The notes beneath the pieces are model-generated. The model had not been told where the DNA came from, did no database searches, and saw only the letters and a list, made by a program, of their open reading frames with translations. Below are positions 34,651 to 48,964 of a DNA stretch of 52,418 nucleotides, piece after piece; positions within the stretch are counted from its first letter, which is position 1; every line of letters begins with the position of its first letter. The DNA comes from Chloroflexota bacterium (GTDB taxonomy: Bacteria > Chloroflexota > Anaerolineae > Anaerolineales > UBA11858). The stretch is taken from assembly GCA_018648225.1 (NCBI GenBank), contig JABGRQ010000069.1, positions 1 through 52,418 on the forward strand, written 5' to 3'. The position numbers and the translations under genes are program-made.

Positions 34651-36342
34651 TTAAAACTCACCAATTTCAGCTACGCGTAGCTTTTCAATCGCCAGCATTC
34701 CGCCAATACTGGTCAGCATCAGGATGGTGCTTAATGCCAACGCCTGACCGTAGTTTAGCGCGCCGGGGCGCGAAAGCAATCGGTAGATCGTTACCGGCAG
34801 GGTAGGATATTCCGGACGTGAGAGCAGGGAGGTTGCGCCGAACTCGCCAATAGAAATTGTGAAAGCGAAGGTAGCCGCCACCAGTGCGGCACGGCCGATC
34901 AGCGGCAGATCAACGTGGCGAATGACTTGCACGGGGGTTGCGCCCAGCGTGGCCGCGGCCTGCCGCAGGCGCGGCTGAATACTCTGCAAGGCGGGAACCA
35001 GACTGCGCACAACGAAGGGAAAGGCTACCAGGGTATGTGCCAGGGGAATCAACAACGGTGAGGCGCGTAAATCCAGCGGGGGCTGTGCTAACGCAATGAT
35101 AAACCCTAATCCCAGTGTCACAGAGGAAGTGCCCAGGGGCAGCATTAGCAAAGCATCCAGCAAACGGTTGAGAGGCGCTGTGCGGTCGCGTGAGAGCGCC
35201 CAGGCCGCCGGGAAACCCAATCCCAGCGCGAGCAGCACTGTCAGGGTGGCGTAGGCCAATGATAACCCCATCGCGGTAGATGGGGCTGCATAAAAGAGAG
35301 AACCTTGACGGTTGAGCCATAATTCACGGTAAAAGGTTAACGTAAAGACGCGCAACCCTTGTCCCTCGAATGAAACCACCGATTGAGTTGCCAAAGCCAA
35401 TAAAGGCATGATTGTGATCGCCAGCAGCAGGCTGATCCAGAGGTTGGCGAACAGGCGTGTCTCGAAGCCGCGGATACGTTTTTGAATTTGTTGGCTGGCG
35501 CGCAAATTTAGCGGCTGACTCAATTGAGTTGCAAGCCGCGAGTAGAGTAGGGTCATCGCCAGGGAAATAAGCAATTGAATAATCGAGAGTACCGCGGCCA
35601 GCGGCAGGTTGAATAAGCTGATGGTCTGATAGAAAATCTCGACTTCCAAAGTAGCAAAGGTTGGCCCGCCGAGCACCAGAATCACCCCGAAGGAAGTGAA
35701 ATTAAAGATGAACACCAGCAAAGCCGCCGCGCTGATTGCTGGGGTAAGTAGGGGCAGGGTGATACGCAAGAAAGCCTGACTTCGATTGGCGCCCAGCACT
35801 CGGGCAGCATCGACCAGATGAGAGTCCAGATGCCCCCAGAAATCACCCACCATGCGCAACACAATCGTCAGGTTATAGAAAACATGCGCGCAGAGAATAG
35901 CTGTAAAGGTGTGGAGAAATGTGATGGGGGGTGCATCCAGCGCCAGGATGCGCATGAACAGTAGATTGATCAAGCCACGCGGCCCTAATAGCGCGCTGAA
36001 GGCTGTCGCGACCACCAATGTTGGCATCACAAAGGGGACACCCGTCAGGGCGCGCAGCAGCGATTTGCCGCGAAACTTGTAACGCGCTAATAAATAGGCT
36101 CCGGGCAGCCCGATGAGCAGCGTCAATAAAGTGGACAGACCTGCCTGCCAGAACGTGAAACTAATCACGCCATGCAGTGCGGGTGACGTGACAGCCTCGA
36201 TAAAAGGCGCGCTATTCTCTGGCGTGCGCGTCAAACTAAAATGCAACATCCTCCCTAGCGGATAAAAATAGAATATCACCAGGAATGTGAGTGGAGCTAA
36301 CCAGAGCAGGGTTGTATGGCTGTACTTGCGCGGCATAATCAT
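34651..36342 (-). CDS. Thiamine-type ABC transporter permease (fused double permease)
   Basis: A 563-residue membrane protein with about 12 helices in two homologous halves, as in ThiP/FbpB. Each half has an EAA-type cytoplasmic loop (DAARVLGANRSQAFLRITLPLL about residues 180-200, and QAAATLGATPVQVIRHVDLPLI about 470-490). This gives a complete pore in one chain. The start is ATG 36342, or 36336 six bases later. An intergenic MITE-like element (36352-36494) separates it from the upstream binding-protein gene. Confidence 0.88.
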   Translation of the reverse strand: MIMPRKYSHTTLLWLAPLTFLVIFYFYPLGRMLHFSLTRTPENSAPFIEAVTSPALHGVISFTFWQAGLSTLLTLLIGLPGAYLLARYKFRGKSLLRALTGVPFVMPTLVVATAFSALLGPRGLINLLFMRILALDAPPITFLHTFTAILCAHVFYNLTIVLRMVGDFWGHLDSHLVDAARVLGANRSQAFLRITLPLLTPAISAAALLVFIFNFTSFGVILVLGGPTFATLEVEIFYQTISLFNLPLAAVLSIIQLLISLAMTLLYSRLATQLSQPLNLRASQQIQKRIRGFETRLFANLWISLLLAITIMPLLALATQSVVSFEGQGLRVFTLTFYRELWLNRQGSLFYAAPSTAMGLSLAYATLTVLLALGLGFPAAWALSRDRTAPLNRLLDALLMLPLGTSSVTLGLGFIIALAQPPLDLRASPLLIPLAHTLVAFPFVVRSLVPALQSIQPRLRQAAATLGATPVQVIRHVDLPLIGRAALVAATFAFTISIGEFGATSLLSRPEYPTLPVTIYRLLSRPGALNYGQALALSTILMLTSIGGMLAIEKLRVAEIGEF

Positions 36343-36510: not shown

Positions 36511-37545
36511 TTACCTCAGTACCAACTTCGTCCAATCTGCAATCCATTGCTCGCGTCGGGCGCTAATATCTTCAGGAGCGAGAAAAGCAGGCGCATCCGG
36601 TGTGAAGAGATATTGTTCGAAGGTTGCATCTAGTTTGGTGTTGGCGTTCACCGGGAAAACATACATTTGCATGGGAATATCAGACTGAAATTCCGGAGAG
36701 AGCATGAAATCGATCCATTTTTCGGCCAGTTGGCGTTGCACGGTGCCTCGCAGAATACCGACAAATTCAATCTGTCGGAAGCAACTTCCCGCGCCGATCA
36801 CGGCGGCCGTCGTCGGCGCATTCAGGGGTTCTTCGGCAAATAAATACTCAAAGACCGGGCTGGAGCCATACGAGACCACAATCGGGTATGTGCCGCCCCA
36901 TTGGCTGAACTCACTATAATAGGCCGATTCCCAGTCATTGACGACTTTTACATCATTATCGACCAACCCCTGCCAGAAATCGAGATAACCATCTTCACCA
37001 AAATGTCCGACGGTGGCAAACAGAAACGCCAGTCCTGGTGAAGATGTGGCTGGGTTTTCAACTACGACCAGCCCGCGGTATTCGGGCTTGAGCAAATCTT
37101 TGAGCGTTTTCGGTGGGGCCAGACTATTCTGCACAAAGTAGGCAATTTCATAATTCAGGCAAACATCGCCATAATCTACCGGCAAGGCGCGTTGCTCGGA
37201 GTCTAGTTCAAATTCATCGGGGATGTCGGCCAGCAAGGGCGAAGCATACGATTCAAAAATACCCTCCTCCAATGCCCGGCTCAAGAAAGTGTTATCCACG
37301 CCGTAGAAGACATCTGCCAAAGGCTTATCGCCAGCCAATATGGCTTTGTTGACGGCTGTGCCGGTATCGCCCGCGCCGATAAACTGAACATCAACATTGT
37401 GTTCGGTTTCAAACGCTAGCACCAACGCCTCAGATATGGCAAATGAATCGTGGGTCATCACCGTCAGCGTTTGTGGCCCTTTTTCGGTGGCGCAGGCCGA
37501 CAGCAAGGCTGCGAGGATAAGTAGCAAAAAGAAGTTGTGTTTCAT
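36511..37545 (-). CDS. Thiamine-type ABC transporter substrate-binding lipoprotein
   Basis: A 344-residue extracellular binding protein of the ThiB/TbpA type. Signal MKHNFFLLLILAALLSAC gives the lipobox Cys at about 18. The mature part opens TLTVMTHDSFAISEALVLAFE, close to ThiB (V-x-T-Y-D/H-S-F), and contains GDTGTAVNKAIL, ADVFYGVDNTFL, VDYGDVCLNYE, NPATSSPGLAFL and QWGGTYPIVVSYGSSPVFE, the ThiB-like pattern. The ATG at 37545 has GGAG 6 nt upstream; a TTG at 37557 is less likely. It follows thiN by 18 nt. Confidence 0.9.
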   Translation of the reverse strand: MKHNFFLLLILAALLSACATEKGPQTLTVMTHDSFAISEALVLAFETEHNVDVQFIGAGDTGTAVNKAILAGDKPLADVFYGVDNTFLSRALEEGIFESYASPLLADIPDEFELDSEQRALPVDYGDVCLNYEIAYFVQNSLAPPKTLKDLLKPEYRGLVVVENPATSSPGLAFLFATVGHFGEDGYLDFWQGLVDNDVKVVNDWESAYYSEFSQWGGTYPIVVSYGSSPVFEYLFAEEPLNAPTTAAVIGAGSCFRQIEFVGILRGTVQRQLAEKWIDFMLSPEFQSDIPMQMYVFPVNANTKLDATFEQYLFTPDAPAFLAPEDISARREQWIADWTKLVLR

Positions 37546-37563
37546 CAGTTTCTCCAAACATAG

Positions 37564-38217
37564 TTAATGCTGAGGCGCAACGGAGCCGTCCTGCCGAATA
37601 TGTACCACCAGCAACAACCCCCTGCGCAATGTTATTGTTGCCCGTGTATCATATAAAACATTGCTTACCCCCCGCGCCGCGCCAAATATCAGCGTATCAC
37701 CTTCTAGGGCGTATTCCAGCCCATGTGTGCTAACGCCAACCGCATCGCCGCGCAATGGAATCAGCGAAAGCGTATCGCCAGGCGCGCCATCAATTTGCAT
37801 GTGCTGACCGCTTTGCAATACGCGTAATTCTTGCGTGCCATCTATCAGGCGAGTGTTGAATTCACTCAGCGCCGGATGCGCCAGTAATAATAGATTGGCG
37901 AAGGTCATATCCCAACGGGCACCCAGTGCGGCGTAGATTACGATTTCCTCGGGCTGGAACCCCCTGGCTTTGTGCAGGGCCAGCTCAAGGTCGGTTTCAT
38001 CTTTGCGGGTGGGGTAGGTGATCAGTTTTGCCCCGGCATCTTCGAGCGCAACGCACTCAGGGGCAGTCAGCGAGTCCATGTCGCCAATCACCCACCCTGG
38101 GGTGAGTCCGAGTTTCATCAAGTGACGGGCGCCCCCATCGGCGGCAATCAGCACATCTCCAGGCAGAATATCCTGGGGTAATAAAAAATCTCCATTGGCA
38201 AAAATAATCACACGCAT
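37564..38217 (-). CDS. thiN: Thiamine pyrophosphokinase
   Basis: A 217-residue kinase that makes TPP directly from thiamine and ATP. Motifs: FANGDFLLP, LIAADGGARHLMKLGLTPGWVIGDMDSL (the catalytic Asp cluster), YPTRKDETDLELAL, YAALGARWDMTFANLLLLAHP and the C-terminal thiamine-binding part with LSLIPLRGDAVGVSTHGLEYAL. It is first in the operon after the TPP riboswitch. Its GGAGGG ribosome-binding site lies in the riboswitch expression platform, 8 nt before ATG 38217. Uptake plus pyrophosphorylation, with no thiamine-synthesis genes here, points to thiamine salvage. Confidence 0.92.
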   Translation of the reverse strand: MRVIIFANGDFLLPQDILPGDVLIAADGGARHLMKLGLTPGWVIGDMDSLTAPECVALEDAGAKLITYPTRKDETDLELALHKARGFQPEEIVIYAALGARWDMTFANLLLLAHPALSEFNTRLIDGTQELRVLQSGQHMQIDGAPGDTLSLIPLRGDAVGVSTHGLEYALEGDTLIFGAARGVSNVLYDTRATITLRRGLLLVVHIRQDGSVAPQH

Positions 38218-38247: not shown

Positions 38248-38257
38248 AATTTCTTGT

Positions 38258-38354
38258 GGGCTGCCATCCCTCCGCCGGTATGATCCGGATCAGGTAAACG
38301 GGTCGAGCGCTTTTGGCGCTCCTCTCAGCCCGGCAGTACCAGGCTCCCCGTGCA
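38258..38354 (-). ncRNA. TPP riboswitch (THI element)
   Basis: Read on the minus strand, the conserved THI blocks are all present in order: GGGGAGCC (38342-38349), GGCTGAGA (38323-38330), a variable GC hairpin (38305-38321), GACCCG, CCTGATCCGGATCATACC (38277-38294) and GGCGGAGGGATGG. It sits between a TTGACA/TATACT promoter and thiN, so it should bind thiamine pyrophosphate and repress the five-gene operon. Confidence 0.95.
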
Positions 38355-38374
38355 GAATATCAATTGTGTTCAGG

Positions 38375-41862: not shown

Positions 41863-43656
41863 CTAGAATACTTTTACTTCTTCAATCTTGTAGCATACTA
41901 CTTGATCGCCGTCTTCAAAATCGTTGAAGCCTTTCATGCCAATGCCACACTCAAAGCCTTCGCGCACTTCACGCACATCTTCTTGATGCCGCTTGAGAGA
42001 AGCCGCTTCACCTTCAAAAACGGCTTCATCGCCGCGCATCACTCGCATGAATGCATTGCGAAACAGGGTGCCTTCAACCACACGGCAACCGGCGGCTTTC
42101 CCGATCTTGGAGGCAGAAAATACAGCCAGTACGTTCGCGCGTCCCAAAACCACTTCTTTTTGTTCCGGGGCCAATAAGCCTTTTAGCGCCTTATCGATAT
42201 CTTCGGTGAGCCTGTAAATAATATTATACGAGCGAATTGATACTTTTTCGGTGTCGGCCAATCGCCGCGCGGGCGGGTCGGGGTTGACATTGAAGCCGAT
42301 AATGATCGCGTCGGATGAAGATGCCAGCATGACATCATTTTCAGAGACATTCCCGGTATCAGCATGCAAAATATTGACTCGAATATCTTCTACCTGCATC
42401 TCTTCAAGTGAAGAAACAATCGGCTCCAATGAACCTTGTACATCGGCTTTAATAATCAGGCGTAGTTCTTGTGCTTCGCCAGATTGTACCCGGGCAAATA
42501 GCTGTTCGAGGGTCATGCCCGCGTGTTTGGCTGCGCCCGATTGTTCACCCTGAAGTTGGCGGTCATGCACGATGGTACGCGCAACTTTGGTAGACTCAAC
42601 AACTTTGAAGATTTCGCCCGCCGCGGGGATTTCATCCAAACCCATAACGGAAATAGGAGAGGATGGTGGCGCTTTCGTGATGGCGACACCCTGGTAGTCA
42701 AACATGGCTTTGATACGACCGTGGGATTGTCCCGTAACGACCACATCTCCGGTTTTGAGTGTGCCATTTTGCACCAGCAGGGTAGCGACCGCGCCGCGTC
42801 CACGCTCTTGGCTGGCTTCAATAACTGTGCCGAATACTTCCCCATTGGGGTTAGCATAAATCTTGGTATTGTCGGCAACCAACAAAATCGCCTCGAGAAG
42901 GTCATCCAGACCCTGTTGTTCTTTCGCCGATATCGGAATGACCAAGGTATCCCCATCCCATTCATCAGGAACCAGGCCAATTTCAGCAAGCTGTTGTTTT
43001 ACTTGGTCGGGAACTGCGTTTGGGCGGTCAATTTTGTTCAAAGCAACGATGATGGGAACCTGGGCAGCCTGGGCATGGGCGATAGCTTCGCGAGTTTGCG
43101 GCATCACGCCATCATCTGCGGCTACCACCAGAACGACAATATCTGCCCCTTGAGCGCCGCGCGCTCGCATGGCGGTAAAGGCCGCGTGTCCGGGGGTGTC
43201 AATAAAACTGATGAAGCGATCGTTGTGTTTGACTTGATAAGCGCCAATATGTTGGGTAATTCCACCAACTTCGCCTCCGGCAACATTGGCCTCACGGATA
43301 GCATCCAGCAAAGTAGTTTTCCCGTGATCAACATGGCCCAAAATACCAATAACAGGAGGGCGTGGTTCCAGATTTTTAGACGTTTCTTTGGCAATCCACT
43401 GTCGCCAAAGCGGAATTTCGGAAATATCCTTACCGCTTTCTGCCTCGCTGATTTCGAGTTGTGCATCGAAGCCCAGTTCAGCCGCGATTATCGCGGCGGT
43501 ATCAAAGTCGATCTCCTGATTAATATTTGCCATTACGCCATTCGCCATCAATGTTTTTATCACATCGATAGGGCTGGCTTGTAAGTGTTCAGATAATTCG
43601 CGTACGGTTATGCTGCTGGGGAGTTCAATTGGTTTTAATTCGCCATTATCGCTCAT
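41863..43656 (-). CDS. infB: Translation initiation factor IF-2 (short form)
   Basis: A 597-residue IF-2, shorter than the E. coli type because the long N-terminal extension is missing. An IF2_N domain ([35 protein letters not shown]) leads into the GTPase: G1 [10 protein letters not shown]3 DTPGHAAF, G4 NKID; then EF-Tu-like domain II, IF2 domain 3 and the C2 domain ending [35 protein letters not shown] at 43665 overlaps the AAGGAG; ATG 43656, 8 nt after AAGGAG, is better. It is preceded by a 174-nt gap after ylxR. Confidence 0.95.
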
Positions 43657-43839
43657 AGTGGTCACTCCTTCTAGGTTCTCAACTGCAGCTGGTAGATGTG
43701 AACCATCGGTACCGCTTGCTTTGAGCAGAGGTTGTCAAGTTGAACACCCTAATGAGTTGGCGAGAGCAGGCTGACTTCGGTTAGTACAGGATGATGGCTC
43801 GCGGGCCAGTTGGGTGTTGTTTGGTTATGTGGCTGTGAT
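43657..43839 (-). other. ylxR-infB gap with nested inverted repeats
   Basis: No gene is seen here. The gap contains AACACCC (43743-43749) paired with GGGTGTT (43812-43818) and an inner GCGAG (43760-43764) paired with CTCGC (43798-43802). It is unusually long for this operon and may be a structured infB leader. Confidence 0.4.
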
Positions 43840-44130
43840 TCATTTCGTTGCTGGCTCAGCTTCTATGGGGAGTTCTTCCATGAACGCCTTGAGTAACTGA
43901 TGATCTTCAGCGCTGATTGTGGTTTTAAGGGCGCGGGCCAATGAGCCTCTTATCCCTTTTCCCCAACAGTCACGTTTCTGATGTATATAAGCGCCGCGTC
44001 CGGTGAGTTTGCCCGAAGGGTCAATTTTCACACCTTCAGCGGTGCGTACTATGCGGATCATCGAACGTTTGGGGAGTACAGTCCGACAGCCTACGCATGT
44101 GCGTTGGGGGATGTGTTTTTTCTTCCTCAC
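43840..44130 (-). CDS. ylxR: YlxR/RnpM family RNA-binding protein
   Basis: A 96-residue protein with the family motif HIPQRTCVGCRTVLPKRSMIRIVRT and the GRGAYIHQKRDCWGKGIRGSLARALK signature. The family modulates RNase P in Gram-positive bacteria (RnpM) and is nearly always between nusA and infB. Here it follows nusA by 40 nt. Confidence 0.93.
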   Translation of the reverse strand: MRKKKHIPQRTCVGCRTVLPKRSMIRIVRTAEGVKIDPSGKLTGRGAYIHQKRDCWGKGIRGSLARALKTTISAEDHQLLKAFMEELPIEAEPATK

Positions 44131-44170: not shown

Positions 44171-46168
44171 TTAAAAATCCCACTCTTCATCATTCCATTC
44201 ATTCCATTCTTGTCCTGATTTCTTGCGTTTTTTACGGTAAATCGTGACATCGCGATCAGGGTCGTATTCGATTTCAACGTATTTTTTACGTTTCTTGCCT
44301 TTATCATCTGTGCTTTCGTCGCTGGCAAGCTCATCAAAATCGAGCATTTCTGGCTTGAGCTTGAAGATTTCTTCCATTGATTTGGGTAACTCTTCATCGG
44401 GTGCGCCAGCTTTCTCGGCGGGCGCTTCGGCTTTTGCTGCATCTTCGACCACAGCCTCAACCGATTCTACTTCATCGCTGGCTACTTCTTCAACAGAGTC
44501 TTCAGTCTCTTCGGCTACTTCTTGAACAGATTCGTCTTCGGTCGCCTCGTCAACTTCAGCAATGGCTTCCGTTTCGGTCGCCACTTCGCCTTCGCTGGCC
44601 GTTTCTTCAGATTCCTGCATTGCTTCAACTTCTTCAACAGGGGCTTCTTCTGTAATCTCAACCGGAGTAAGCGAGGTTGCCATTAATTTCAATGCCGCTT
44701 CGATCTCTTCCATAGCTTTGGGGCCGATACCATCAACTTCTCGAATAGCCCCTGGATCAAAGTTATATGCAAACATTAACTCTCCAACATTGGATACTTC
44801 CAGATTGTCTTCTAATAATGATGTGAGATGATCTGAAAAACCAAGGGTCGGTAGGGGAAGTTCGTATGCCCCTGCGGGAACATCTTTGCGGGCATTTTTT
44901 AGGCGGTTGGCATGTTCCTGTTTGCGCTCTCGAATGCTGTCAATGAGTCCACGCTCGATGCGCGTGGTAAAGGCGTGCATTTCTTGGAAGTCTTCCGGGG
45001 TGATCGGCCGCCCCTCGGCCTTCTTTTTCATCAGGGCTTCAACGCGCGGAGTATTTTCGCTTTCAATTTCCTTATATTCAGCGTAAGCGGCATTATTCTT
45101 GAGTTTGAAAAGCGTTTCAGATGTGGCTTCAATCAGGCTCTTGATGTCGATGCGCCAGCCAGTGAGTTTGGCGGTGAGACGGGCGTTTTGCCCATCGCGC
45201 CCGATAGCCAAACTGAGTTGGTCTTCAGGTACGACTACGGTAGCCGTCTTTGGCCCATTATGCTCTTCCAGAAAGACGCTTAAAACGCGCGCCGGGCTGA
45301 GAGCTTTGGCAATATACGCTTGGGGATCCGAGTTCCACTCAATGACATCGATTTTCTCATCACTTAGCTCGCGCACAATGGTTTGAATACGCACACCGCG
45401 GATGCCGACACAGGCTCCAACCGGGTCTACGCCGGGCTGGAGTGCCGCCACAGCTACTTTTGAACGTTGGCCTGGTTCGCGCGAGATGGAGCGAATTTCT
45501 ACCAGCCCCTGGTAAATTTCTGGAACTTCATTTTCAAGTAAACGTCGCAAAAAATCGGGATGAGCGCGCGATAGAATGATCTTTGGTCCGCGGTTGGAAT
45601 CTTGTACTTCAAGCAAGAGCGCACGCACCCGATCGTGAACGCGGAAGAATTCGCGTGGAATTTGGTGGCGGCGCGGCATTATCCCCTCGGCTTTTAAATC
45701 CAGCCCCAGGCTGATTTGTTTGGCATTGATGGCTTGCACAACGCCACTAATAACATCGCCAGCCTGATTAGCATAATAAGCGTGCTGGGCATCTCGCTCT
45801 GCTTCGCGAATGCGTTGTTGAATTACCTGACGAGCTGTTTGGGCAGCCACGCGCCCGAAATCAGTCGGGGTGCTTTCCACAATGACCATATCGCCATATT
45901 CAGCTTCAGGATTTACCTCTTTTGCTTCTGCCAGAATGACCTCGGTGCGGTCGTCTTGAACTTCGTCAACGACCTCTTTTTCCGCGGAAATCGAAACCGC
46001 GCCGGTAATCGGATCAATTTTTGCCTCAACATGCTGCGCGGTAGAAGCGCGAACGGCGCGTCGGTACGCAGATACCATCGCATCCTCAATAGCAGCTATA
46101 ACAACATCCTGGGGTAACCCTCGATCATCGAGGACTTGTTTTAAGGCCAGAGCAAAATCATTCTTCAT
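44171..46168 (-). CDS. nusA: Transcription factor NusA with a long acidic C-terminal extension
   Basis: A 665-residue NusA. The N-terminal RNAP-binding domain ([35 protein letters not shown]) is followed by S1 and two KH domains ([84 protein letters not shown]). The usual protein ends near 360. Here a KH-distal linker, then a helix-hairpin-helix-like segment ([22 protein letters not shown] type, about residues 465-490), a stretch of about 90 residues very rich in Glu/Asp/Ala/Val, and a basic-aromatic end ([21 protein letters not shown]...[11 protein letters not shown]) are added. It is first in the operon, behind a predicted promoter and a folded leader. Confidence 0.93.
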
Positions 46169-46192
46169 ATCTCTATATCTCCATCAATAACT

Positions 46193-46266
46193 GGGTGGTT
46201 GTCTATCAGACACAAAGAAAAGTGGGGGTTGCCCACTTTTCGCTGACAGCAGTATTGCTACCACCC
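46193..46266 (-). ncRNA. Putative cloverleaf leader RNA upstream of nusA
   Basis: Read on the minus strand, four helices fit without overlap. Closing stem: GGGTGGT (46260-46266) with ACCACCC (46193-46199), 7 bp. Arm 1: AGCA-ATAC-TGCT (46248-46259). Arm 2: AAAAGTGGG-CAACC-CCCACTTTT (46218-46240). Arm 3: TGTCT-GAT-AGACA (46200-46212). Arms 1 and 3 abut the closing stem; linkers are 7 and 5 nt. It resembles a tRNA in outline but lacks a T-loop, a CCA end and an anticodon loop of seven. It starts about 6 nt after the predicted transcript start. Confidence 0.5.
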
Positions 46267-46278
46267 TATAGCGTCAAA

Positions 46279-46307
46279 ATTCTAGCACGCTTTGTTATTT
46301 GTGGCAA
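46279..46307 (-). promoter_or_regulatory. Promoter of the nusA operon
   Basis: On the minus strand TTGCCA (46302-46307) and TAGAAT (46279-46284) are separated by exactly 17 nt. The start near 46272 would give a leader of about 100 nt before nusA ATG 46168. Confidence 0.72.
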
Positions 46308-46372: not shown

Positions 46373-48964
46373 TTAATTATTTGCTACGATCAATTGATCG
46401 CGCAGGCGAATTTCTTCTTCCACGGAGGTGATTTTCTCATCCAACCAGGCGCTGCGCAGGTCTTCGAGAATTTGTGCGTAAACCGGTCCAGGAGCCAGCC
46501 CCATTTCTTTGAGATCGTGACCTGTGGTAACAGGCTTGATCTCTCGCCATTTTTGTGCGAATTGGAATAGGCACTGACGCACTTTCTCGTCGTTGGTTGC
46601 ATGGTAGAGGCCGTAAATTGCCAGTGGTGGGGTTTTTGCACAACGCCGGGTAATTTCACTGGGTTCTTGGTCTACAAGGTTGGGGAGATCGTGCCAGATG
46701 AAACACGCCGCGCGGATGGTTCCGGTGAGGGCGGCAGGTAATTTCAAACGTTTAATCACGCCCTGAATGCGGTAGATGGGGGTGGGAATCAGCCACAGGA
46801 TGTAGGCTAAAGCTCGTTTCAGGCGCGCCCCTTCCATGTCTGGTGAGAGATTCCAGATCGAGTCTGGTGTATGTGCCTCGAGGGTAGAAATTTGCCTGGC
46901 AATTTCAGGATTCCACTTTAGGTCTTTGTGGATTTCACTGAGCAAGTCGAGTTCGTTTAAGCGATCCAGCATTTGGATGGCATTTTCCTCATCGAGAATA
47001 TTGTCCAGTTCATGCCGGATGCGGTCGCCAGAGATGCGGTTCATCAGTGAGCGTGCTTCTAGTAAGAGTTGATAGCTGCGCTCGCTGATGGCGAAGTTAT
47101 AGCGTTTTTCGTAACGCACTGCGCGCAAAATGCGTGTGGGGTCATCGACAAACGAAAGCGAGTGCAGTACGCGGATTTTTTCGTCTTGCAGATCATTCAG
47201 GCCGCCCCAGTAATCATGGAGTTCGCCGTAATGATGTCCATCGAGACGCAGTGCCAGCGTATTGATGGTGAAATCGCGGCGGTGCAGATCGAGCTTGATG
47301 CTGCCGCGTTCCACGGTGGGTAGCGCGGTGGGGTGGGTGTAAAACTCCGTGCGTGCAGAGATGAAATCGAGCGAGGCAGGCAGGTTGCCTTGTTGGAGGG
47401 TGCTTTCTTCTAGCAGCCATTTGGCCGTGCCAAAGCGTTTATGTGTGGTAACACGCCCGCCAAATTGATTACCTAGCGCCTGTGCCAATTCAATCGCGTC
47501 GCCTTCCACGACCAGATCAAAATCGAGGCTGGGGCGGTTGAGCAACAGGTCGCGCACAAAACCACCAACAATGAAGAGTGCGGCGTTCTGGCTTTTGGCC
47601 GTTTCGGCAATCATATGGAGTAAATCTAATCGCTCTGGGGGCAATGCTTGGTTGAGTTTTTCGTTCAGGTTGCGCGGCGCGGCGCGGGTGGGTTTGGTGG
47701 TGAGTATTTTGAGTAAATCGGTACGGGTGACGATACCGATAATCTGATGGCTGCCACGCTCGACGACCGGGATTTGACCCCAATCGGTATCCGTCATAAT
47801 GTTTTGGAGATATTCGATGGAATGATCGGGATGAACGTGTGTATTACCAGCTTTCATCAGACTCGATGCAGGCAGGTTGAGCTTGTGTGAAAGAGCGCGG
47901 TCCACGGCGCGGCGGGTGAGTAAACCTACGATGGTATTATTCTCGACTACCGGATAGCCTTCGTAACCGTAACGCTGCATACGCTGGGAGGCTGCTTCTA
48001 CCGGGGTGTCGGGTGTGAGTACTTGTGGCGCGCTCGACATAATTTCGCCAACCGTCACAGACGGTTGGACGTGGTGGGGTAAGATGGTCTTGAGTTCAGC
48101 ATATACATCTTCGAGAGTACGATTCTTAATCAACCCTGCGGCAGCGCGGGGATGCCCGCCGCCGCCGAAATGCGCAGCAATTTGGGCCACATCGATATTA
48201 TCGCTGGTAGAGCGGCAGATCAGTTGTACGCCCCCGCGGGTCTGGATGACTAAAATCAATGCTTCGGGGTCGAGCAGATCGCGTAGTTTATGGGCAATTG
48301 TGGAGAGTTCCTCTTCGGATTCCTGCGCGTCACCGGTAGCCAGCAATACAGCCAATCCATGAACATCCATGCTTTCTGCGTTCGCTTGCAAGCTGCGGTA
48401 AATGGCTTGCTGTTCTAATGAGAGCGGATGGTTGAGAAAATCATTCGCGATCGATAAATTGGCGCCTTCTTCCAGCAGATAAGCCGCGGCGTGCACATCG
48501 CGCGGAGTGGTGCGGCTATATGTTAAAGAGCCGGTATCCTCATAGATGCCCAGAAGCAACAGCGTTGCTTGAACCATGTTGAGATGCTGACACCTTTCTT
48601 GAATGGCCTCAACGAAAATAGTCGTATTGGCTCCGGTCTGATCAGAGATGAACTCCCACTCCGGGGGGAGATTCGGCTTGGGGTTGTGGTGGTCCACTAC
48701 CTTGATGTGTGTCTCACCCCCCATGCCTTTTACACTGACCAAAGACTGCGTATCCACGAGGGTAATCATCTCGATAGGCTCACCTGGCATATCGCGCGGA
48801 TCAATAAAAGGGAGTTCGGCGCCATAGAGCGTGAGAAAACCGCGCACATTGCGATTGATGCGCCGTGGCAGCACCGGGATAGCATTTTCGTCGATCAAAT
48901 TTGCTCCCAGCAGGGAGGCGATGCCGTCGAAATCGGTTTGTTCGTGGGTAAGAATAATCCGCAT
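46373..48964 (-). CDS. DHH phosphoesterase - CBS pair - poly(A)polymerase/CCA-type nucleotidyltransferase fusion
   Basis: An 863-residue multidomain protein. Residues 1 to about 310 are a DHH/DHHA1 phosphoesterase (DFDGIASLLGA, VVDHHNPKP, GIYEDTGSLTYS, FGGGGHPRAAAGLI). Residues about 315-430 are two CBS domains (VLTPDTPVEAASQRMQRYGYEGYPVVENN...; IEYLQNIMTDTDWGQIPVVERGSHQIIGIVTRTDLL). From about 450 it is a class II nucleotidyltransferase: LFIVGGFVRDLLLNRPSLDFDLVVEGDAIELA (GG plus DxD), DFTINTLALRLDG and FVDDPTRILRAVRYEKRYNF. Such fusions occur in several phyla; some related enzymes are A-adding partners in split CCA synthesis. Tail reactions and RNA turnover in one chain are the likely role. 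Confidence 0.92.
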   Translation of the reverse strand: MRIILTHEQTDFDGIASLLGANLIDENAIPVLPRRINRNVRGFLTLYGAELPFIDPRDMPGEPIEMITLVDTQSLVSVKGMGGETHIKVVDHHNPKPNLPPEWEFISDQTGANTTIFVEAIQERCQHLNMVQATLLLLGIYEDTGSLTYSRTTPRDVHAAAYLLEEGANLSIANDFLNHPLSLEQQAIYRSLQANAESMDVHGLAVLLATGDAQESEEELSTIAHKLRDLLDPEALILVIQTRGGVQLICRSTSDNIDVAQIAAHFGGGGHPRAAAGLIKNRTLEDVYAELKTILPHHVQPSVTVGEIMSSAPQVLTPDTPVEAASQRMQRYGYEGYPVVENNTIVGLLTRRAVDRALSHKLNLPASSLMKAGNTHVHPDHSIEYLQNIMTDTDWGQIPVVERGSHQIIGIVTRTDLLKILTTKPTRAAPRNLNEKLNQALPPERLDLLHMIAETAKSQNAALFIVGGFVRDLLLNRPSLDFDLVVEGDAIELAQALGNQFGGRVTTHKRFGTAKWLLEESTLQQGNLPASLDFISARTEFYTHPTALPTVERGSIKLDLHRRDFTINTLALRLDGHHYGELHDYWGGLNDLQDEKIRVLHSLSFVDDPTRILRAVRYEKRYNFAISERSYQLLLEARSLMNRISGDRIRHELDNILDEENAIQMLDRLNELDLLSEIHKDLKWNPEIARQISTLEAHTPDSIWNLSPDMEGARLKRALAYILWLIPTPIYRIQGVIKRLKLPAALTGTIRAACFIWHDLPNLVDQEPSEITRRCAKTPPLAIYGLYHATNDEKVRQCLFQFAQKWREIKPVTTGHDLKEMGLAPGPVYAQILEDLRSAWLDEKITSVEEEIRLRDQLIVANN

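Follow-up and report, generated by a model that had tools for sequence, protein, structure and literature searches.

The leader of the nusA operon in this Chloroflexota bacterium is a rimP-less variant of a known attenuator. Its anatomy, together with the analogy to systems described in other phyla, makes it probable that the leader is autoregulatory, with NusA limiting its own production through predicted termination at a conserved hairpin close to the promoter. In the window (the whole stretch of DNA analyzed, 52,418 nucleotides), the leader is read from the minus strand, and the fold that first drew attention to it sits in the 5' leader of nusA, between nusA and an upstream nucleotidyltransferase gene. 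The features are as follows.

46279..46307, minus strand: promoter-like site TTGCCA-17-TAGAAT with an extended -10 (TG before the -10), from sequence
46260..46266, minus strand: GGGUGGU, 5' strand of the outer stem P1, lineage-specific
46253..46257, minus strand: CAAUA motif, 21 nt 5' of GUGGG, order-specific, picked after inspection
46248..46259, minus strand: 4-bp arm P2 (AGCA/UGCU), overlapping the CAAUA motif, from the fold and eight relatives
46217..46241, minus strand: core hairpin, a predicted terminator, GAAAAGUGGG-CAACC-CCCACUUUUC, conserved across the class and beyond
46214..46221, minus strand: interrupted U-tract UUUUCUUU, whose first five bases double as the end of the hairpin 3' arm
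46200..46212, minus strand: 5-bp arm P4, not conserved (63.9% of cells paired)
46193..46199, minus strand: ACCACCC, 3' strand of the outer stem P1, about 10 nt 5' of the ribosome binding site
46179..46182, minus strand: ribosome binding site GGAG, from sequence
44171..46168, minus strand: nusA, first gene of the operon
43840..44130, minus strand: rnpM, 3' of nusA in the same operon
41863..43665, minus strand: infB, 3' of rnpM in the same operon
37564..38217: thiamine diphosphokinase, after a TPP riboswitch
36511..37557: thiamine ABC-transporter substrate-binding protein, after the TPP riboswitch
34651..36342: ABC permease, after the TPP riboswitch

The gene adjoining nusA upstream (46373..48964, minus strand) encodes a tRNA nucleotidyltransferase-like protein of the A-adding kind with DHH and CBS regions, and it scores below the curated cut-off for the A-adding tRNA nucleotidyltransferase family. 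Elsewhere on the window, a TPP riboswitch (38249..38360, minus strand) scores above the Rfam threshold just 5' of the thiamine diphosphokinase gene.

The predicted cloverleaf and its central hairpin

A preliminary description had seen a cloverleaf of four helices beginning shortly after a good promoter. The promoter is borne out (46307..46279, minus strand), with a predicted start site near 46272, and the structure begins closely 3' of it. Minimum-energy folding of 46272..46193 (minus strand) gave -32.9 kcal/mol (z -4.69; 0 of 200 shuffles equally stable). The four helices stand as a prediction (7 bp, 4 bp, 10 bp plus 3 bp past a 1x1 internal loop, and 5 bp), but the central one is longer than the 9 bp claimed and the fourth arm is not kept in most relatives. 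With the hairpin fixed and the flanks alone shuffled, z was -2.83 and 13 of 1000 shuffles were as stable; the same shuffling produced an uninterrupted closing helix of 7 bp or more in 107 of 500 cases and this helix plus a four-way junction in 13 of 500. The earlier statement that chance alone rarely gives a closed four-way junction was too strong, because the central 10-bp arm supplies most of the stability of the fold. Given the hairpin, the junction is a few-per-cent event, unusual but not extraordinary.

Across eight close relatives, 100% of cells are paired in the closing stem and in the 4-bp arm, 97% in the central hairpin and 63.9% in the 5-bp arm. The changes in P1 are one-sided only (U-A to U-G), P2 shows hardly any variation and is weakly tested, and full pairing of P4 is limited to the window species and one near-identical sister; variation within the genus is too small to prove P1 and is evidence against P4. 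Two other group members whose folds were inspected (G003 and G012) form nested stems and no cloverleaf. The four-way cloverleaf is not conserved; the central hairpin is the conserved part, which the cloverleaf surrounds as an incidental or lineage-specific frame. A regulatory role for the complete cloverleaf, in which a protein or ligand would bind the structured RNA and the junction would be its functional unit, is very unlikely: the low folding energy, the pairing of P1 and P2 in 8 of 8 close relatives and P1-like duplexes in some other lineages would fit such an RNA, but the fourth arm fails in most relatives, the G003 and G012 folds are not four-way, the outer stem is absent from most of the class, and the junction arises as often as noted above once the hairpin is given. 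For the original claim this is a caution: what looked like a striking cloverleaf in a single sequence was, for the most part, one conserved hairpin framed by paired flanks.

A tRNA identity is not supported for the leader, with no tRNA gene found by ARAGORN and no tRNA covariance-model match in Rfam; the Rfam search likewise returned no known riboswitch there. The suggestion of a degenerate tRNA is equally unsupported. E. coli has the metY tRNA and the rimP leader as distinct elements, and it is to the rimP leader that the hairpin here corresponds. A processing signal, also suggested earlier, found no support.

Conservation of the hairpin and its linkage to nusA

Upstream regions of nusA were gathered from the family, the order and the class, comprising 197 nusA genes of the class. 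The hairpin G(A/G)(A/G)AAGUGGG-loop-CCCACUUUUCUU, followed by an interrupted U-tract, precedes 185 of them, a count that partly builds in the stem sequence because the search demanded the letters [GC]UGGG (together with at least 5 pairs). Positions outside the search string, namely the AA 5' of it and the U-run 3' of the stem, are also strongly conserved. The 12 exceptions include contig ends, short contigs and variant stems. Leaders of the cultured relatives Bellilinea and Ornatilinea have the hairpin too. The stem is held to a nearly fixed sequence, more strictly than a terminator requires: GGG and CCC hardly change, and c is the commonest letter after GGG (59% in the order, 45% in the rest of the class), while g before CCC is not. 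Where the stem does vary, compensatory changes keep the pairing (GAAACGUGGG/CCCACGUUUC and GAGAACUGGG/CCCAGUUUUC); two relatives have an AACUGGG variant, and three species of family f52 (L365, L366 and L181) have a different stem, AACAGUCGG/CCGACUGUU, in the same place and architecture. A covariation test in relatives, which the preliminary description had proposed, has a mixed outcome: the central stem covaries across the class, complementary changes in the outer stem occur only between a few lineages, and the fourth arm fails.

Loops range from 4 to 13 nt, and a C interrupts the U-tract in 68% of leaders in the order and 62% in the rest of the class (family-weighted). The spacing from the -10-like hexamer to the hairpin is near-fixed in 173 leaders (median 39 nt from -10 to GUGGG), and the distance from the hairpin to the start codon varies greatly. 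A search of the leaders for an antiterminator found none, with mean z of -0.04 and 0.03. From these sequence features, we infer that the hairpin is a promoter-proximal intrinsic terminator at which termination is predicted, and the conserved C would fit a suboptimal terminator that needs help. Primary work in B. subtilis is said to have identified weak terminators as the main targets of NusA. The hairpin could instead be a pause, because the U-tract is short and interrupted. A near-invariant inverted repeat just 3' of a promoter might also be the DNA operator of a dimeric repressor and not an RNA element, but a loop of 4 to 13 nt alters the spacing and phase of the half-sites, compensatory changes alter the letters while keeping the pairing, and the U-tract is one-sided and conserved, all of which leave an operator with very little credibility.

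A context-blind scan of 84,980 genomes with the pattern GAAAAGTGGG-N3-12-CCCACTTTT found at least 118 stretches. Among the 118 listed, 75 lie directly 5' of nusA, 14 lie at 454-691 nt from nusA, and 29 have no nusA link within the flanking DNA examined. A RimP-sized ORF intervenes in 13 of the 14 distant stretches (RimP domains in 6 of 6 tested); the fourteenth, L230 from Anaerolineales, has a long leader with no RimP shown. By record titles, the stretches come from Neomarinimicrobiota, Calditrichaeota, Planctomycetota, Armatimonadetes, Rokubacteria, Proteobacteria and others. A shorter pattern occurs once in the window's genome. When 201 genomes of the phylum were scanned, 54 gave a match to the real pattern and 0 to a reversed control. 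That the hairpin is an ordinary terminator of the upstream gene, unrelated to nusA control, is most improbable: the upstream gene, which ends at 46373, does share the strand of nusA, but the hairpin lies 3' of the nusA promoter at near-fixed spacing and is found in several phyla ahead of nusA or rimP-nusA. With the collection gathered here, the reason for a near-invariant GUGGG stem across phyla becomes testable.

RimP_N had no match in any of 21 genomes (G000, the window's own, and 20 relatives), and 10 of 10 control bacteria were positive. Several of the 21 are incomplete assemblies, but gaps can hardly account for an absence common to every one of them, and rimP appears to have been lost in this group. 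Since the hairpin stands before rimP-nusA elsewhere and is kept here without rimP, its distribution argues that nusA (or infB) is the gene it regulates. The original description of this attenuator left undecided whether RimP or NusA reads it; a group in which the hairpin is kept and rimP was not found speaks against RimP and is a natural setting for testing NusA.

The outer stem and the CAAUA motif

Within the order, 22 of 111 leaders have a duplex between their 5' and 3' parts in the best 5% of shuffles, although these are not independent tests because the leaders are related, and several of the duplexes had been spotted by eye before the test. Most frequent in the window's genus (71%) and in family f8 (47%), such duplexes occur in 0 of 16 leaders of f10 and 0 of 15 of f64; outside the order, the class shows no more than chance (3 of 54 leaders). 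P1-like sequences differ between lineages yet are complementary and similarly placed; they end near the position of CAAUA and near the ribosome binding site. There is moderate support for P1 as a putative lineage-specific addition in this genus and a few others. In one nusA leader (L048 / L003, G004), the hairpin is separated from the ribosome binding site by about 95 extra nt, yet just 5' of that site lies a strong P1 partner, GCUGCCGCCCU, with a duplex of -24.2 kcal/mol.

CAAUA, with one mismatch allowed, is found about 21 nt 5' of GUGGG in 7.88 of 17 family groups by weight in the order, compared with 0.81 in shuffles, a significance that is post hoc because motif and position were chosen after viewing the sequences. 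Other offsets in the same sequences yield almost nothing, and elsewhere in the class the motif shows no enrichment (2.23 versus 2.29 expected). It seems order-specific at fixed spacing and resembles a sequence of the M. tuberculosis rRNA leader near where NusA binds. Most leaders here have CAAUA alone in common with the M. tuberculosis boxC; those of f10 (e.g., G168 and G333) read GAACUCAAUA, to be compared with ACUCAAUAG in M. tuberculosis. NusA bound to RNA is seen in the crystal structures PDB 2ASB and 2ATW. ACUCAAUAG, which shares CAAUA with the nusA leaders, occurs in the M. tuberculosis region before rrs (PMC7399025), and NusA binds a boxC-like element in that rRNA leader, according to PMC6614801. 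The idea that CAAUA is a copy of an rRNA-leader boxC found no support, as the rRNA leaders of the order have no evident CAAUA. Upstream of 16S rRNA in this order (L351-L359 and L361), a boxA-like stretch near CUUAACAACUGAA is followed by GUGAUAGGAA, recurring with variation across families. A tentative and rather unlikely extension is that the Anaerolineales attenuator gained a NusA-recognition tag, in which CAAUA would be bound by the NusA KH domains as the RNA emerges and the outer stem would present the tag in some lineages. If so, NusA would read its own message by sequence as well as via the polymerase.

Proposed mechanism and comparison with known systems

In the autoregulatory attenuator that we favor, RNA polymerase would transcribe a hairpin with a suboptimal, interrupted U-tract some 30-60 nt after the promoter, and NusA on the polymerase would stabilize that hairpin. 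When NusA is abundant, most transcripts would end there at about 60 nt; when it is scarce, readthrough into nusA-rnpM-infB would follow, and no antiterminator structure would be required. In the window's genus, the outer stem would pair the start of the transcript with the segment immediately 5' of the ribosome binding site, forming only after readthrough and probably affecting the stability or translation of the full mRNA. For this leader, we infer termination, its stimulation by NusA and the role of the outer stem alike; NusA termination has been demonstrated in other phyla, and we found none in the literature for Chloroflexota. The earlier suggestion of a regulatory RNA for NusA autocontrol is the option that the evidence supports, although the conserved element is the terminator hairpin and not the cloverleaf. 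Some other factor could read the terminator (NusG, IF2, or an RNA-binding protein now lost or still unknown), in keeping with a stem more conserved than termination needs and with infB in the same operon, but NusA autoregulation via leader termination is established in B. subtilis and nothing here singles out a factor other than NusA, so that we regard another reader as improbable.

In S. agalactiae, transcription of the same operon terminates within the leader, 31 nt past the start (PMC4448216). According to PMC12288461, NusA of B. subtilis controls its own synthesis by stimulating termination in the leader of its gene; the anatomy here matches that account. The window leader does not match the covariance model of Rfam RF01770 (rimP, Gammaproteobacteria), relatives gave sub-threshold matches only, and among the matches listed in G000 none is the nusA leader. 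That model spans 102 nt and has a second, upstream terminator, unlike the leader here, but the E. coli leader ends in AACUGGGC-loop-GCCC-U7 before rimP, like the AACUGGG variant found in our set. The closest description is the rimP-leader, a conserved stem with no antiterminator for which NusA was proposed as the regulator (Naville & Gautheret 2010, PMC2965389). Both have a short terminator hairpin with a G-rich 5' arm and a C-rich 3' arm, GGG and CCC among its stem letters and a downstream U-run, and no conserved antiterminator was found in either. The rimP-leader precedes rimP-nusA-infB, whereas here rimP is missing and nusA comes first in nusA-rnpM-infB; its stem reads GGGc/gCCC and ours GUGGG/CCCAC, and to this the leaders described here add the order-specific CAAUA and the lineage-specific outer stem.
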